From Thermosphaera sp. (GTDB taxonomy: Archaea; Thermoproteota; Thermoprotei_A; Sulfolobales; Desulfurococcaceae): a DNA stretch of 64,000 nt. Positions 2,427 to 13,457 of the stretch are shown piece after piece. The notes beneath the pieces were generated by a model that did no database searches, had not been told where the DNA came from, and saw only the letters and a program-made list of their open reading frames with translations. Position 1 is the first letter of the stretch; each line of letters begins with the position of its first letter. Location of the stretch: contig JAWBNK010000001.1 of NCBI GenBank assembly GCA_038827615.1, forward strand, positions 434,290 to 498,289. The letters run 5' to 3'. The translations under genes and the position numbers were made by a program.

Positions 2427-3854
2427 CTACTTTCTAAAGACGTCGTTGGGCCATCTAAAGGTTACATATAGAAAGCCTAGAGATTGCATCAACACCCATA
2501 TACCTGTAAGAGTCAATTCCTTCGCGAAAAGAATGATACTCAACGCTAGGAATAGTAGTCCAGTTAAGAATTCAGTAGGAACTCTGCGAGTAAAGGCTAA
2601 ATATTCAAAGCGGCCCTTCGGTGTTCTCTTATACGTTATCTTTACGCGGGCAAACGCTTGAATCATGCTCCAGGAGAGGTGAGGAGTTAAAGCAGTCACG
2701 ATAGCAGCGTTCCGGCCAAGATTTACGATCGTTTTCCACGAGTTTCTAACAATATCTCTGATTTCATGATAGAGAATGGCCGCGTATACGGATTCTGCAG
2801 TCAACCACAGAATCAAAATGTAGTAGTGTCTCCCTAAGTACTCAGTACCTGATAAAATTGATATTAGCGCTAACATCCCTGTTCCCAAAAAAGCCAGCAT
2901 TGCTGGGAGGTATTGGAGAAGAAACATTGAAGCCTCGATCTTACCGATAACCCTCTGTGGTGATTTGACTATTTCCTTAAATCTTGAAATGAATACATCG
3001 GTTGCCCCGTAGGCCCAACGAGCCTGTTGGATTCTAAGACCCTTGTAAGTATTGGGTACCTCAACATAAGCTTTACATCCGTCTAAATACATGATCCTGA
3101 ATCTTCTGCTCATCAGCCTGCACCCTATCTCCATATCGTCTTGTATTCTCGCAGGATCCCAGCCCTTCACTTCTTTCTTTAGAATCTCCGAGTTGAAAAC
3201 AGTCCCCGTCCCAAGTGGAAAAACGCTCAACCCCAGCACGCTTCTCCCCTTAAACAAGATTTCAACCATCGTCTTCATTGCTAGGCCAACGGCCTGAGCA
3301 AGTCTCTCTGTGATATCTATAGGTTCCCATCGCCCCACGACACCTGCTACTCTGGGGTCTTTCAACATTATACCAATTCCCTTCCCTATGAGGCATTTCT
3401 CAGGACGACAATCAACGTCTAGGGGGAACACGAAGTCTCCTTTAGAAGCATATAAGCCAACATTTAATGCGCCGGACTTGTATCCAATGGGCTTAGCCCT
3501 CCATACGAACCACACGTTATATCCCATGTTCCTCCAATTTGAGACCTTCTCGAGTAATTTGTTTTTAGTCTCCTCCTCATCATCAGATACAATTATGATT
3601 TCATAATTAGGAAGACCCAGCTTGCTCACATAGTCGAGGAGACCTTCAACATACTCTAGTGGTTCGTTCCTCACAGGAGTAATGAAGCTAACAGTTCTGT
3701 TGTAAACCTCTCCTATGTATTCTTGGGCTGACTTGTACTTTCTCGATAAAGCGTAGAAAAATGCGTGTGATAAGAAAAATAAGGTCTGGGGAACAAATAC
3801 GATGAAAACACCTATGAAACCAATCACGTCATAGATGTTCATAATCATCTCCAA
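2427..3854 (-). CDS. Membrane-bound family 2 glycosyltransferase
   Basis: Processive-type GT2 enzyme that transfers a sugar from a nucleotide donor at the inner face of the membrane; donor and acceptor are unknown. A hydrophobic segment at residues 9-35 precedes the catalytic domain. That domain shows the donor-site DVD (146-148), QDD (238-240) as catalytic base region, and QQARW (276-280), the QxxRW signature of cellulose/hyaluronan-synthase-like enzymes. Several membrane segments follow between about 310 and 470. ATGs at residues 1, 3 and 5 are all possible starts. The product could be a cell-surface polysaccharide or glycolipid. No other glycan-export gene is adjacent. Confidence 0.85.
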   Translation of the reverse strand: MEMIMNIYDVIGFIGVFIVFVPQTLFFLSHAFFYALSRKYKSAQEYIGEVYNRTVSFITPVRNEPLEYVEGLLDYVSKLGLPNYEIIIVSDDEEETKNKLLEKVSNWRNMGYNVWFVWRAKPIGYKSGALNVGLYASKGDFVFPLDVDCRPEKCLIGKGIGIMLKDPRVAGVVGRWEPIDITERLAQAVGLAMKTMVEILFKGRSVLGLSVFPLGTGTVFNSEILKKEVKGWDPARIQDDMEIGCRLMSRRFRIMYLDGCKAYVEVPNTYKGLRIQQARWAYGATDVFISRFKEIVKSPQRVIGKIEASMFLLQYLPAMLAFLGTGMLALISILSGTEYLGRHYYILILWLTAESVYAAILYHEIRDIVRNSWKTIVNLGRNAAIVTALTPHLSWSMIQAFARVKITYKRTPKGRFEYLAFTRRVPTEFLTGLLFLALSIILFAKELTLTGIWVLMQSLGFLYVTFRWPNDVFRK

Positions 3855-3904
3855 GTTAAAAACGATATATAAGATTGAAAATATAACTCTAGATTGTGAG
3901 ATGA

Positions 3905-4546
3905 ATGAAGATTACTTGGCATGGTCATGCGTGCGTCTCTGTAGAAACACCCAATAAGTATACTCTAGTATTCGACCCTCATGACGGTGGAAGCATTGGC
4001 TTGAAAAAACCCAACGTGAAAGCCAACTTAGTCCTAGTTACACATAACCATTTTGATCACAATGCGGTTGAAGTAGTCAGCGAAAAAGATACCAGAGTAT
4101 TCAAAGAATTTATCGGTCAGGCAGTAATAGATGATTTAATTATCTACGGGTTCGAATCATTTCATGATAAAGTAGCCGGTAAAAGAAGGGGGATTAACAC
4201 AGTCTACATGGTTGAATTGCGGAACAAACGCATTGTTCACATGGGCGATATAGGGGATAAGCCGCCCGCGGAGCTTTTATCGAAGCTTCATGGTGCCGAC
4301 ATTTTAATGATCCCGGTAGGCGGGTTTTATACTATTGAGCCTAGCGAAGCATGGGAAATAATAGAAGCCGTTGAGCCTAGAAACGTGCTCCCTATCCATT
4401 ATTGGATTAAAGGATTAAATCTGCCGATTAGACCAGTTGAAGATTTTCTAAAATACGTTAAAAAATACGATGTAAAGAAACTGGAGACAAATTCCTTCAA
4501 TCTTGAGGATTTCGATAATTCGGTGATCTTGCCGAAATTACAATGA
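3905..4546 (+). CDS. Metallo-beta-lactamase-fold hydrolase (UlaG-like)
   Basis: Small metal-dependent hydrolase of the metallo-beta-lactamase superfamily, closest in look to the UlaG/UPF0173 group. It opens with TWHGHAC, typical of that group, carries the metal-binding signature THNHFDHN near residues 57-64, and has further candidate ligands in HMGDIGD and at PIHYW near the C-terminus. Its length of 213 residues fits the family. The substrate cannot be read from the sequence. It is the first gene of a likely plus-strand operon with the next two genes, which follow after 26 bases and then by overlap. Confidence 0.8.
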   Translation: MKITWHGHACVSVETPNKYTLVFDPHDGGSIGLKKPNVKANLVLVTHNHFDHNAVEVVSEKDTRVFKEFIGQAVIDDLIIYGFESFHDKVAGKRRGINTVYMVELRNKRIVHMGDIGDKPPAELLSKLHGADILMIPVGGFYTIEPSEAWEIIEAVEPRNVLPIHYWIKGLNLPIRPVEDFLKYVKKYDVKKLETNSFNLEDFDNSVILPKLQ

Positions 4547-4572
4547 ATCATGTTAAACGGGGTTGAAGAATA

Positions 4573-4863
4573 ATGGCGTATACATGGGAGCCCAGATGGG
4601 AGCCCATGAGATTTGAAAGTAATGGAATAATTATAACGACATGTAGGGACAAAGTCACAGGTCTCATAGCTTGCCCGATTTGTTTAAATGCAGACGCGAC
4701 ATGTAACTCGAAAAATACACACCACTCCGATACTAGAGGAGAGTTATCGTTTTTCTTCTCGATTGATGATCTCATCGAGCATATACGGGTGTTTCATGGA
4801 AGAGGCCTGGCGGCGAAAATTGAGGAGATACGAAAACGAATGGGTGAGAAGACGACTGACTGA
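4573..4863 (+). CDS. Small Cys/His zinc-finger-like protein, unknown function
   Basis: A 96-residue protein I cannot assign. It has a CPIC pair near residue 34 and a HIRVFH motif near residue 71, the spacing pattern of a stretched C2H2 zinc site, with extra Cys and His residues between. The N-terminus repeats WEP twice within a few residues, and the C-terminal 20 residues look like a charged helix. It lies between a metallo-hydrolase and a PfkB-type kinase and overlaps the start of the latter by 20 bases, so the three are probably cotranscribed. It may bind nucleic acid or simply be zinc-stabilised. Confidence 0.6.
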   Translation: MAYTWEPRWEPMRFESNGIIITTCRDKVTGLIACPICLNADATCNSKNTHHSDTRGELSFFFSIDDLIEHIRVFHGRGLAAKIEEIRKRMGEKTTD

Positions 4864-7787: not shown

Positions 7788-8150
7788 CTACTCTTGTCTA
7801 GGATTAATAGACGCTTCATATTGTTCTACGATATCGTAACCAAACCTCTCCTTGAACATTTCCCGCCCCTTTGGAGTCATTCTCAAAGGCGTCCAAGGTG
7901 GGTCGTAGACTATGTTGATGTCGGCATCGAGATTTAAAGCCTCTTTCAACTGATCTATAACCATTAGCGGCAGAGTCGAGGCTAAAGGACAAAACATCGT
8001 TGTTAAACTCATGTCTATTTTTACCCTTTTCTCATCAACTATTTCGATATTATATATCAAACCCAGATTGTATACATCTATCCCGATCTCGGGGTCTACA
8101 ATACTCTCTAGTACTCTCACTATTTTCTCTCTTAGATCAGTGTTCGACAA
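7788..8150 (-). CDS. DUF59/MIP18-family Fe-S assembly protein
   Basis: Member of the MIP18/PaaD/SufT (DUF59) family, small proteins that help assemble or deliver iron-sulfur clusters. Residues 10-90 hold the family core: LESIVDPEIGIDVYNLGLIY, then MSLTTMFCPLA with the conserved cysteine of the TxxGCP-like loop. The C-terminus PPWTPLRMTPKGREMF is also typical. The start is TTG at 8150 behind GGGGTGAACC. Clients within this window could include Nth and the hydrogenase subunits, but no direct link is shown. Confidence 0.85.
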   Translation of the reverse strand: MSNTDLREKIVRVLESIVDPEIGIDVYNLGLIYNIEIVDEKRVKIDMSLTTMFCPLASTLPLMVIDQLKEALNLDADINIVYDPPWTPLRMTPKGREMFKERFGYDIVEQYEASINPRQE

Positions 8151-8178: not shown

Positions 8179-8511
8179 TTAATCTTTTTTAAATAGTCTT
8201 CTCCAAAATCTCCTCTTCTCCTTTCCGGCTTCATTGAGACCCATTGCTTTTCTAATATACGTCCTTGACAATTCTTCATAAGGTGAGTCAACTACTTGTT
8301 TGGCGATCCTATGTAAGATGATTAGTTCTTCGTGTGTGGCATAGTCTAATGGAATCCCCTTGTTTCCGTTTTTCTCCCATTCCTTGTATAATCTTTCCAT
8401 TATATTTTCCACTTCTTGATTAGAGTAAAAAGCTTCTTTTACTACGGGGATAGTGGAGTCGTCGATCAAATTTATTATCTCACTTTTTAACTTGTTCATT
8501 TCCTCTTGCAT
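8179..8511 (-). CDS. Conserved small helical protein, unknown function
   Basis: About 110 residues, predicted mostly helical and highly charged, ending in a basic tail KEKRRFWRRLFKKD that suggests contact with nucleic acid or membrane. I do not recognise the family. The frame is open to 8538, but that start would overlap the upstream isomerase gene. ATG at 8511 behind GGGGG, seven bases past that gene's stop, is preferred. It lies directly downstream of the ribose-1,5-bisphosphate isomerase gene and is probably cotranscribed. Confidence 0.55.
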   Translation of the reverse strand: MQEEMNKLKSEIINLIDDSTIPVVKEAFYSNQEVENIMERLYKEWEKNGNKGIPLDYATHEELIILHRIAKQVVDSPYEELSRTYIRKAMGLNEAGKEKRRFWRRLFKKD

Positions 8512-8518
8512 AAACCCC

Positions 8519-9520
8519 CTACTCCGAGATATCTTCAAATCTAATCTTTGTCAATCCCCCTTGTTTAATCTTATCTAAGGCCCACCCCATCCTCTCCATT
8601 AATACCAGGATAGCCGCTTGAGGTGGAATTACACCTATCTCTGTTATGATCGCATCAATATACTCTGGGGGCGTCACATCGAATGATGGATTTAACACCC
8701 TAATCTTTGAATGTAATCTATACCATGACTCGGGGACGACCTCCGTTGCCTCTCTAAACTCGATTGGAACGGGTTCACCGATTAACGTGGTCGGGGAAAA
8801 CTTGTACGTCTCGGCTACGACATAAACTCTAACTCTAGCCTCCTTTGCGGCTAGGGCTACTTGGCTTGTCCCTATTTTATTCACGACTGCACCATTGCTT
8901 GCTACAGTGTCGGCTCCAATAATTACGTGGTCTATTTCGTGCATGATGTATCTTACGGCGCTGTCGGGGATTTGAACGACGGGAACACCGTTTTCCAACA
9001 ATTGTCTCGCGGTTATTCTTCCCTGATAGAAGGGGCGTGTCTCAGTACTATATACTTTCACTACCCTCCCCATTTTATATGCCTCTGTGATCGCGCTAAC
9101 TGCCACGGAACTGTGGCAGTGTGTTAAAACTACTGAACCTTCTTTGATCCTTTTTGCCGCTGCCTCGCTTATTAGTTTAACAGCGTTTATGCTCTCCTCG
9201 ATGAACCTTTCAGCTGTTGATACTACCGCTTTGACAGCTTCATCTAGCGTGTTCGGATTAGACTTGTAAAGCCCGTTGAGGACATACATCACAGCGTTGG
9301 GGAGGCTGACAGCAGTCGGGCGGGTCGCTAGGAGAATGTCAGCTATTCTTCCTATATATTTTTTAAACAACGTGATGTTTTCCTCACCATTATATTCTAA
9401 GGCAGCTATTTTAAGCGCTTCTGCGGCAGATCTGGCGATTTTCCCTGCCCCCCTTATTTGCATTGTTTTGATTCCATTGGCTATTTCAAGCACCCTTGGC
9501 GGAACCGAGTCTCCGGTCAA
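8519..9520 (-). CDS. Ribose-1,5-bisphosphate isomerase
   Basis: Converts ribose 1,5-bisphosphate to ribulose 1,5-bisphosphate in the archaeal AMP/pentose bisphosphate pathway. It belongs to the eIF2B-alpha/MtnA fold family. The catalytic cysteine is seen in THCHSS (Cys135) and the catalytic aspartate in IGADTVASNG (Asp204), matching the Cys133/Asp202 pair known from the Thermococcus enzyme. The N-terminal RGAG loop is also present. At 333 residues its length is normal. Its ATG overlaps the stop of the upstream paralogue by four bases, so both are translated from one message. AMP phosphorylase and RuBisCO are not in this window. Confidence 0.9.
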   Translation of the reverse strand: MTGDSVPPRVLEIANGIKTMQIRGAGKIARSAAEALKIAALEYNGEENITLFKKYIGRIADILLATRPTAVSLPNAVMYVLNGLYKSNPNTLDEAVKAVVSTAERFIEESINAVKLISEAAAKRIKEGSVVLTHCHSSVAVSAITEAYKMGRVVKVYSTETRPFYQGRITARQLLENGVPVVQIPDSAVRYIMHEIDHVIIGADTVASNGAVVNKIGTSQVALAAKEARVRVYVVAETYKFSPTTLIGEPVPIEFREATEVVPESWYRLHSKIRVLNPSFDVTPPEYIDAIITEIGVIPPQAAILVLMERMGWALDKIKQGGLTKIRFEDISE

Positions 9521-10464
9521 AGATTGTACACCTCCTTCAATCTTTTTACTAGTTTAGATAAAGGCGTGATGCTCGGCGGGTATGACCCGTATACTTCTCT
9601 CAATAAGATAGGTATGGCTTGAGGTGAAAATATGCCATACTCGGTTGCCACAGCATCCACATACTCGGGAGGGGTTACGTCGTATATAGGAGCTCTTGCA
9701 ACGTAGTTCTCGGGAAGGGTTCTGCGAACTTCTTCGCTCATCAGTAGCTCCCAGCCACCTTCTGGCAACTTGATCATTTCGCCGTAAATGGATTCAAAGC
9801 TAAATTTGATTAACGGGGCGATCACGTAAACCCTCACCCTTGCCTCCTTAGCCACTAGTGCCATTAAGCTGGAACCAGCCTTACTCACAGTTGCCCCATT
9901 GGCTGCAACTGCCTCAGCTCCAAGGAAGACTTTGTCAATATTTTTCATGAAATACCTAATTGCCGAATCAACGATTATATTGACCGAAAAGCCTAGGGTT
10001 TCGAGAAACTCAGCTAGTAAAATTCCTTCAAGCCCAGGCCTTGATTCTGGAACATACACTTCTACATCAATATTTTCTTCTTTAAGTCTTGTGAAAAATC
10101 TTCTAATAGCCAAACTGTTGCTATTCGTCATCAACTTATCTCCTTTAGAAACTCTTTTACACGCTACCTCTGAGGCAGCCCACAGAGCTTTATCGTAACT
10201 TGTTTTCAATTCGTTTATTGTTGAGGCGATCCCGTTTAGCCCATTTGCGAGAAACGACTCAATGATGTTTCTCAATACATTTAATATGCCAGCTGAAGCT
10301 GGCCTATCAGTAGTTATCCTCTCATAAGTTTCCAAGATTTTTTTAGCGAATAATTTTTCTTCTTGAGAGAGAGCGGTTTTATATAGGTCGTCAAGCGTGG
10401 AGAACAATATCTCGGAGCCGGTGGGTCGAGGCTTAAACCCATGTGTAATAAGCTCGTTAATCAA
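9517..10464 (-). CDS. eIF2B-alpha-like paralogue of the adjacent isomerase, catalytic residues lost
   Basis: A 315-residue relative of the next gene with the same fold signatures (DSAIRYFMKNIDKVFLGAE, AANGATVSKAGSS, DVTPPEYVDAV). The catalytic Cys position reads TNSNS (Ser115) and the catalytic Asp is Glu in LGAEAVAANG (Glu184). It is therefore unlikely to isomerise ribose 1,5-bisphosphate. It may be an archaeal IF2B-like regulator, a partner subunit of the isomerase, or act on another sugar phosphate. The start is TTG at 10464 with GGTGAG upstream. It is cotranscribed with the active paralogue by a four-base overlap. Confidence 0.8.
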   Translation of the reverse strand: MINELITHGFKPRPTGSEILFSTLDDLYKTALSQEEKLFAKKILETYERITTDRPASAGILNVLRNIIESFLANGLNGIASTINELKTSYDKALWAASEVACKRVSKGDKLMTNSNSLAIRRFFTRLKEENIDVEVYVPESRPGLEGILLAEFLETLGFSVNIIVDSAIRYFMKNIDKVFLGAEAVAANGATVSKAGSSLMALVAKEARVRVYVIAPLIKFSFESIYGEMIKLPEGGWELLMSEEVRRTLPENYVARAPIYDVTPPEYVDAVATEYGIFSPQAIPILLREVYGSYPPSITPLSKLVKRLKEVYNL

Positions 10465-12737: not shown

Positions 12738-13457
12738 TCAACCCGGTTCAGTCTTCTTAACAATCAACGACTCTTTATCGTATCCTATAACCACATAATC
12801 AACGAGATACGAGGGAAATATCCCCGTGTCAACTACCCCATGAATGAGCTTAAGTTTTTCATGGATTTTCGCGGGGTTTTCCAAGGGCTTTGAGAACTTC
12901 AAGTCAATTATGAAATTCCCATTGTCTGTAACAACAGGTCCATCTTTCGAATTATCGAACCTTAAGAGGACTTCAGCTTCTTCTAGTAATCTCAGAGATT
13001 TCACGACGTCTGGCAGAGCGAGTTGAATTACTTCAATTGGAACAGGTTTCAAGTAGAGATAGGGTTTGCCTGTGTACTTGGAGTGATCAACCACGTAAAT
13101 CCTTTCCGAAGCCCGAAGGGCTAGTGTTTTCTCTCTTAGAAACGCTCCTCCTCTACCCTTGATAAGGTCTAATTTACTGCTTACTTCATCGGCGCCGTCC
13201 ACATAAACGTCTATGGATTCCGCGTAACTAATATCTAAAATGCTTTTAACCCCTTTACTTCTCAAGTAAATCCCCGTGTCGAAGGATGATGTAACGAGAC
13301 TCTTAGTGCTGAGGAAATCTAAACACGCTTCTATGAAGTATTTTATCGTAGATCCCGTTCCGATACCTATTATCCTAGCATCGCTAAAGGCGGTTCTCAC
13401 AAGGTTGCAGGCATCCACTGCTGCCCTCTTTTTACTAGACTCCGGGGCCGAGCTCAT
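12738..13457 (-). CDS. rpiA: Ribose-5-phosphate isomerase A
   Basis: Interconverts ribose 5-phosphate and ribulose 5-phosphate, joining nucleotide synthesis with the archaeal ribulose-monophosphate route. Family motifs: IGIGTGSTIKYF (phosphate loop), DVYVDGADEV with catalytic Asp residues, and LIKGRGGAFLREK containing the catalytic lysine region. At 239 residues it is of normal length. It overlaps the upstream macro-domain gene by four bases and the YdjM-like gene follows immediately, so it sits inside a tightly coupled minus-strand operon. Confidence 0.93.
   Translation of the reverse strand: MSSAPESSKKRAAVDACNLVRTAFSDARIIGIGTGSTIKYFIEACLDFLSTKSLVTSSFDTGIYLRSKGVKSILDISYAESIDVYVDGADEVSSKLDLIKGRGGAFLREKTLALRASERIYVVDHSKYTGKPYLYLKPVPIEVIQLALPDVVKSLRLLEEAEVLLRFDNSKDGPVVTDNGNFIIDLKFSKPLENPAKIHEKLKLIHGVVDTGIFPSYLVDYVVIGYDKESLIVKKTEPG

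Follow-up and report, generated by a model that had tools for sequence, protein, structure and literature searches.

The window considered here is a stretch of 64,000 nucleotides from a Thermosphaera sp. genome (contig C1:434290-498289, in an assembly of 1.36 Mb in 6 contigs), and the subject of this analysis is a pair of overlapping genes within it which encode two related proteins, a ribose-1,5-bisphosphate isomerase (R15Pi) and an altered R15Pi-like copy. Both genes lie on the minus strand. The altered gene (9517..10464; product P0001, 315 amino acids, TTG start), whose product has the IF-2B fold, is the first of the pair, and the isomerase gene (8519..9520; product P0002, 333 amino acids, TTG start) is the second. 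The first-pass annotation had described a four-base overlap between the two genes, and this is confirmed: the bases TTGA at 9517..9520 (minus strand) supply both the TTG start codon of the isomerase and the TGA stop codon of the altered gene. The final stretch of the altered gene contains a Shine-Dalgarno-like GGAGGTG (9529..9535, minus strand), 8 nucleotides upstream of the isomerase start, where it presumably functions in initiation. The two proteins share 34% identity across 270 columns, and together with one MtnA encoded elsewhere they make up the three PF01008 members of the genome, which also carries one adenosine monophosphate (AMP) phosphorylase gene and one RuBisCO gene, both distant from the pair.

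Residues were mapped by alignment to the solved R15Pi of Pyrococcus horikoshii (PH0208), with the AMP site taken from the paper on one structure. The downstream product, P0002, scores 369.3 bits against the NCBIfam R15Pi model TIGR00511 and so passes its cut-off of 314.1; it has the catalytic Cys135 (codon TGC, 9116..9118, minus strand) and Asp204 together with Arg22, Gln166 and Lys240, it also keeps the chain-A AMP-site residues of R15Pi, and its AlphaFold2 model has a predicted local distance difference test (pLDDT) score of 88.4. By the family cut-off and these residues P0002 is a ribose 1,5-bisphosphate (R15P) isomerase, and activity, activation by AMP and a hexameric assembly are predicted for it.

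The upstream product, P0001, reaches 186 bits against the same cut-off of 314.1 and fails R15Pi membership. The first-pass annotation had placed Ser115 and Glu184 in the first-translated copy at the positions of the catalytic Cys and Asp, both of which it saw kept in the second copy, and the alignment to PH0208 bears this out: Cys135 is replaced by Ser115 (codon AGC, 10120..10122, minus strand) and Asp204 by Glu184 (codon GAG, 9913..9915, minus strand), Gln166 is replaced by Glu146, and the RGAG phosphate-binding motif around Arg22 is gone. In PH0208, according to PMC5789824, Gln166 and the RGAG motif bind the 1-phosphate of the substrate, and Ser for Cys is the mutation (C135S) that leaves R15P bound and unconverted. 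The sequence suggests that the altered copy is catalytically inactive. P0001 nevertheless retains the AMP-site residues Arg104, Arg209, Arg211 and Asp270, and its pocket retains the sugar and 5-phosphate ligands Arg54, Ser117, Lys195 and Lys220 without the 1-phosphate ligands. Its AlphaFold2 model (pLDDT 90.4) has its best PDB match in the R15P-bound C135S form of R15Pi, at a template modelling (TM) score of 0.80. P0001 also falls below the NCBIfam cut-offs for aIF2B-alpha (85.4 against 339 bits) and aIF2B-delta (61.9 against 249 bits), which the aIF2B-like protein L098 fails too, and both window proteins fall below the MtnA cut-off of TIGR00512 (87.6 and 206.6 against 279 bits); MtnA membership is ruled out by these scores together with a tree, described below, which sets MtnA apart at 100/100.

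The distribution of the pair was followed in an order survey of 147 genomes and a phylum survey of 398 genomes. The order survey includes partly incomplete assemblies and could miss very divergent altered copies, and its counts are counts among the matches listed; the 27 pairs drawn from the matches listed in the phylum survey are a sample and not a census. Both copies occur in at least 59 of the 147 order genomes, in seven family-level groups (f1, f2, f4, f5, f8, f9 and f10), and the conservation among Desulfurococcales relatives that had been proposed as a check is found in 22 of 22 genomes of the window's own group (f1). Every order genome with an altered copy also has an isomerase (59/59); the genes are adjacent in 55 of these genomes and on different contigs in 4, and when the 55 adjacent pairs are labelled by position, the first gene lacks the Cys and the second has both Cys and Asp in every one. 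One further genome, G025 (87% complete), has an apparent isomerase without an altered copy in the match list. The 27 further pairs come from eleven other groups (f12, f13, f35, f48, f50, f58, f60, f62, f65, f67 and f68), giving a set of 86 pairs in 18 family-level groups of Thermoproteota; single-member loci (L098, L212, L237 and L240-L247) were excluded from this set, and the named contigs L101-L180 were kept out because some of them are the same genes as loci with G handles. The two genes are adjacent in 81 of the 86 pairs, and in all 81 the altered gene comes first and on the same strand, with a median distance of -4 bp and an exact 4-bp overlap in 30 (first-start rule). The same arrangement is seen on named contigs of Staphylothermus, Thermogladius, Zestosphaera and Thermofilum. 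Chance pairing is ruled out by the fixed adjacency and order (55/55 and 81/81), and a gene error or pseudogene by the open frames and conserved residues across the 86 pairs.

In the Asgard assemblies L151 (Sifarchaeum), L152 and L158 (Njordarchaeum), an altered copy and an isomerase stand head to head, and in the altered copies of L152 and L158 Glu stands in place of Asp, and neither Arg22 nor Gln166 is left. Two other arrangements were met: in L157 (archaeon RBG_16_50_20) the altered copy (1000-1947) and the isomerase (2905-3894) lie on one strand with about 960 bases between them, and in L179 an altered frame of 587 amino acids (2947-4710) stays open across the isomerase region in another frame, which may be an assembly error or a read-through. 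R15Pi is reported from some Desulfurococcales and most Thermofilum species in passages of PMC9700705 which do not mention a second altered copy, and no published account of the paired altered copy was found in the open-licence literature searched.

The two copies have lost residues in a mirror-image pattern. In the count across the 86 pairs the copies were labelled by Cys135 (and Asp204), so that the counts at those two positions are partly fixed by construction whereas those at other positions are independent of the label; no two-member locus assessed for the count had two Cys-bearing copies. On the catalytic side (PH0208 numbering here and below), Gln166 is retained in 0 of 86 altered copies and 86 of 86 isomerases, and Arg22 in 3 and 86 respectively. 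In place of the Cys, different altered lineages carry Ser, Gly, Ala or Thr, and the Asp has not become Glu in every altered copy: Glu stands in 68 of the 86 and Asp is kept in 18. Other pocket residues are present in most altered copies (Arg65 in 84, Ser137 in 83, Lys215 in 79 and Lys240 in 86), while the sugar ligand Asn214 is lost in 40. On the AMP side, where chain-A residues were counted, the altered copies keep Arg124 in 84, Arg229 in 86 and Asp290 in 86 of 86 cases and the isomerases keep them in 47, 57 and 69 (one isomerase ends before position 290), and there is no pair in which any one of the three is found in the isomerase only. When one pair with a cut-off isomerase is left out, as in all 85-pair analyses, 83 of the 85 altered copies have all three residues together but just 44 of the 85 isomerases do, so that the half-site is at least partly lost in 41 of 85 isomerases. 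Group f35 (for example L221 and L229) is one lineage whose isomerases are without it. All 19 unpaired R15Pi keep Arg124, Arg229, Asp290 and Gln166, where unpaired means that there is no adjacent altered copy, not every genome having been checked for one elsewhere; these 19 were selected for Cys135, Asp204 and Arg22, a selection outside which L263-L269 fell. On a tree of 130 rows, described below, changes at Arg124, Arg229 and Asp290 number 8, 7 and 2 on the isomerase side and 1, 0 and 0 on the altered side, and the AMP half-site has therefore been lost repeatedly in isomerases with a partner and scarcely at all in the partner itself. Among the possible forms of the inter-subunit contact Arg229-Glu287 of PH0208, the one between Arg229 of the altered copy and Glu/Asp287 of the isomerase is the best preserved, being intact in 80 of 85 pairs; the others are intact in 59 (altered-altered), 56 (isomerase-isomerase) and 41 (isomerase-altered). 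Of the dimer salt-bridge residues, Glu160 is retained by both copies in all 86 pairs and Arg162 in 85. The Asgard pairs L152 and L158 have the same AMP-side pattern, and L151 agrees as far as its cut-off isomerase is readable.

The presence of the pair also tracks the pathway in which R15Pi acts. In the order survey AMP phosphorylase was found in 47 of the 59 pair-bearing genomes and in 5 of the remaining 88, all five of the latter being less than 90% complete, and RuBisCO was found in 49 of 59 and 17 of 88 (Fisher p = 2e-21 and 9e-15, values which ignore the relatedness of the genomes); the AMP phosphorylase count rests on 52 matched genomes, of which 45 score above the family's cut-off. Three of the five pair genomes of genus g42 (G132:C2:28408-31742, L068; G126:C14:28021-31344, L077; G091:C8:6691-10025, L070) have the gene for the RuBisCO large subunit beside the pair but on the other strand, and in the remaining two (G097 and G109) RuBisCO was not found in the order survey. 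The same survey yielded two side observations. The AMP phosphorylase match of G065 (C1:1430323-1431814), a single-contig genome in which the pair and RuBisCO are present, is split in two, and its first part contains two in-frame TGA codons; and in genomes of group f3 (for example G002, G013 and G024) RuBisCO was found and AMP phosphorylase and R15Pi were not.

In the 130-row tree one branch parts 55 altered copies, from Thermoproteota and Asgard archaea, from 75 isomerases which include those of Pyrococcus and methanogens, with a Shimodaira-Hasegawa-like approximate likelihood ratio test (SH-aLRT) value of 99. The split stands at an SH-aLRT of 95 in an 88-row tree from which 51 functional columns were removed, and the idea that it is an artefact of shared active-site losses was rejected on that result. 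The altered copies are thus one ancient clade. In a tree with MtnA as outgroup, which places MtnA apart with the support given above, the altered copies fall in one clade (100/97) with aIF2B (PH0440 and L098), with L247, L263 and L264, and with human eIF2B alpha, beta and delta, and each human eIF2B subunit falls on the altered side when taken singly. The end branches of eIF2B are very long (2.1-3.8 changes per column), which calls for a long-branch warning, and the approximately unbiased test, with the 51 functional columns masked, does not reject an alternative in which eIF2B-alpha is placed outside the altered clade (p-AU 0.515); a firm placement of eIF2B inside the altered clade was not accepted for these two reasons. 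Two signature columns are for the most part in line with the shared clade. Column 161 has Thr in MtnA (6/6) and the isomerases (48/50) and Ser in the altered copies (35/37), aIF2B (2/2), eIF2B-alpha and delta, with Cys in beta; column 166 has Gln in MtnA (6/6), the isomerases (50/50), eIF2B-beta and the small dead group of L247, L263 and L264, whereas none of 37 altered copies has it there and aIF2B, eIF2B-alpha and delta are without it too. That the altered copy is kin to eIF2B is, on these sequences, likely but unproven. The first-pass annotation had offered an IF2B-like protein as the alternative to a regulatory subunit; the resemblance holds in so far as the altered copies share a clade with aIF2B and eIF2B, with the reservations just given about the placement of eIF2B, and it follows from that shared clade that the two ideas are not true alternatives. 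L247, L263 and L264 form a further catalytically dead PF01008 group, with Gly for Cys and Thr or Ile for Asp. One genome (L212, G443:C151, and L171) has a second altered copy, with Gly for Cys, which groups with the Asgard altered copies and not with the paired copy of the same genome. In G003, the one genome looked at in this respect, the aIF2B and R15Pi genes are on different contigs.

The fixed order, the overlap and the mirror-image loss are most simply read as the signs of a two-subunit isomerase, and it is probable that the pair gives rise to a single R15P isomerase composed of a catalytic chain and of a regulatory pseudoenzyme which carries AMP sensing in a mixed ring. The downstream product would be the catalytic subunit, and the upstream product a dead paralogue which joins it in a complex, most likely a mixed hexamer of the type seen in the family. 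In the R15Pi hexamer a single AMP is in contact with three chains (PMC5789824), and a mixed ring would therefore let the altered chain, which would hold the AMP half-site (Arg124, Arg229, residue 231 and Asp290 in PH0208 numbering), act through AMP on its neighbours. AMP on the altered subunit would signal the supply of AMP for the route through AMP phosphorylase, R15Pi and RuBisCO and so turn the catalytic subunits on, and the 4-bp overlap and internal Shine-Dalgarno-like site would keep the two chains made together. Because the dead pocket keeps its ligands for the sugar and 5-phosphate and lacks those for the 1-phosphate, it may hold a second ligand, either a sugar 5-phosphate such as ribose 5-phosphate or a nucleotide. 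The contact between the chains, their stoichiometry, the AMP signal between subunits and the ligand of the dead pocket are what we infer from these patterns.

Several observations weigh against a two-subunit isomerase. The isomerases of the window's family (f1) and of f2 still have Arg124, Arg229 and Asp290 and could therefore be regulated alone; in the window family both copies keep the AMP half-site, so that the division of labour is one seen in relatives and presumed for the window. The proposal of the first-pass annotation that the altered copy is a regulatory subunit in mixed rings is accordingly strengthened by the order, overlap, co-occurrence and mirror-image loss in related pairs and weakened by the window family's own isomerase, and the contact that it presupposes is a putative one. 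In 73 of 85 pairs the altered copies alone could supply a complete AMP site, against 77 of 85 for the best mixed site, a difference small enough to make a separate AMP-binding ring possible. The AMP contacts Asn209, Arg190 and Lys194 are split in no single way, Arg190 being lost in 12 isomerases and 5 altered copies, and residue 231 is variable in unpaired enzymes also, with R or W in 9 of 19; all four positions count as neutral or unfavourable. Single AMP residues have been lost without a visible partner in L163 (His124) and L164 (Gln229), two out of a set of 27 R15Pi from named contigs whose examined stretch shows no partner, a set that in part contains the same genes as the 19; and an R15Pi-like group, L265-L269, has His290, though Arg124 and Arg229 are present. 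The Cys persists in two Asgard altered copies (L152 and L158). Evolution is also faster in the altered copy than in the isomerase, the identity of L056 to the window copies being 43% for the former and 70% for the latter. Finally, among the 59 pair genomes AMP phosphorylase was not found in 12 and RuBisCO was not found in 10. The L265-L269 group, from other Thermoproteota, keeps Cys and Asp and has Gln for Arg22 and Glu for Asn214, and possibly acts on another substrate.

Alternatively, the altered copy might be an aIF2B-like factor in translation or another non-metabolic process, forming a separate ring that senses AMP or sugar phosphates without touching the isomerase, so that the operon would only link nucleotide state to translation. 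This would agree with the clade shared with aIF2B and the three eIF2B subunits, with the frequent completeness of the all-altered AMP site, with the alignment of Glu184, Ser115 and Lys220 of P0001 with Glu198, Ala129 and Lys234 of human eIF2B-alpha, which contact fructose 6-phosphate (PMC8187479), and with the report that an R15Pi homologue is a hub among initiation factors in Haloferax (PMC8576121). However, translation exists in every genome, whereas the co-occurrence tracks the AMP/RuBisCO pathway, and 21 genomes of group f11 have one PF01008 member each (E <= 0.001, among the matches listed); in 81 of 86 pairs the isomerase gene immediately follows the altered one; and a bystander would leave unexplained why the AMP half-site is lost in 41 of 85 partnered isomerases and kept in 19 of 19 unpaired ones. 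A role of this kind is considered unlikely. It is improbable, too, that the altered copy has become an enzyme for a different substrate, for instance one that isomerizes a sugar monophosphate with the use of Glu184 and no Cys. The pocket has not been erased, as the counts of Arg65, Ser137, Lys215 and Lys240 indicate, and Glu replaces Asp in most copies, but crystals of the PH0208 mutants C135S and D204N contained unconverted R15P (PMC5789824). Moreover, the various replacements of the Cys, together with the loss of Asn214 in 40 of 86 copies, mean that there is no constant new catalytic set.

Many of the lineages that bear the pair are hyperthermophiles, which might favour a structural or assembly partner that stabilizes the isomerase hexamer and senses nothing. 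The dimer residues Glu160 and Arg162 are kept, as such a partner would require, and AMP itself has been proposed to work through stabilization of the hexamer (PMC5789824), but a scaffold has no need of Arg124, Arg229 and Asp290 at 84-86 of 86, and the crystallised R15Pi of T. kodakarensis and of P. horikoshii, both hyperthermophiles, is in each case the product of a single gene (PDB entries), so that this explanation is given very little weight. A decaying recent duplicate would account for the lost catalytic residues and the faster evolution, but it is refuted by conservation: the altered copies form one clade across 18 family-level groups and the Asgard archaea, their frames are open, and the AMP-site residues are kept in nearly all of them.

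A two-subunit isomerase can be set beside several known systems. Archaeal R15Pi (T. kodakarensis TK0185 and P. horikoshii PH0208; PDB 3VM6 and the 5YFJ series) has the fold common to both window proteins, and the downstream gene has all of its catalytic and substrate residues; the known enzyme is a homohexamer, one gene product with both catalysis and the AMP site (PMC5789824), whereas here these functions would lie on two tandem-encoded chains. The eIF2B alpha, beta and delta subunits and aIF2B (PH0440, PDB 1VB5) are, as the altered copy appears to be, catalytically dead members of the same fold. The altered copy shares the loss of Cys135 with aIF2B and all three eIF2B subunits and the change of Asp204 to Glu with eIF2B-alpha only, and its pocket resembles the sugar-phosphate pocket of eIF2B-alpha (PMC8187479). 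Unlike the altered copy, aIF2B and eIF2B are without most of the R15Pi AMP-site residues (delta keeps Asp290), and eIF2B acts on eIF2. MtnA shares the PF01008 family with both window proteins, which lie below its equivalog cut-off. Catalytic and regulatory enzyme pairs that arose by gene duplication are known in HisG-HisZ and the yeast NAD-dependent isocitrate dehydrogenase, and the present pair would work as these do, with the effector site on a dead paralogue and catalysis on the active one, although the folds are unrelated and the complex here is a predicted one.

A further and more tentative proposal, which we would call possible and no more, is that the eIF2B regulatory subunits have in the altered copy their archaeal sister lineage, that a mixed ring of an isomerase and an AMP-sensing pseudo-isomerase was present by the time of the ancestors of the Asgard archaea and Thermoproteota, and that the alpha/beta/delta core of eIF2B is a later, fully dead descendant whose nutrient-sensing pocket, for sugar phosphates in eIF2B-alpha, was inherited from that ring. 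If the pair is indeed one enzyme, then R15Pi, familiar as a homohexamer, would across a large share of the Thermoproteota have two subunits and be allosterically partitioned between them; annotation that goes by family likeness would give the altered gene a wrong label, and control by AMP would escape assays made with the catalytic gene by itself. The pair would also be a clean natural case of an ancestral enzyme dividing catalysis and regulation between two chains, again in the Asgard archaea, and would offer a testable route to the old question of why eIF2B builds on a sugar-phosphate isomerase, in that the intermediate, a sensing pseudo-isomerase with an active partner, may survive.

The genes flanking the pair in the window show no obvious functional connection to it. 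Directly after the isomerase lies a gene of 119 amino acids (8179-8538, minus strand) with no Pfam or NCBIfam family match, followed by an Fe-S assembly domain at 7788-8150 and, beyond it, a gene which by resemblance only is seryl-tRNA synthetase-like. RpiA is encoded at 12738-13457 of the window.

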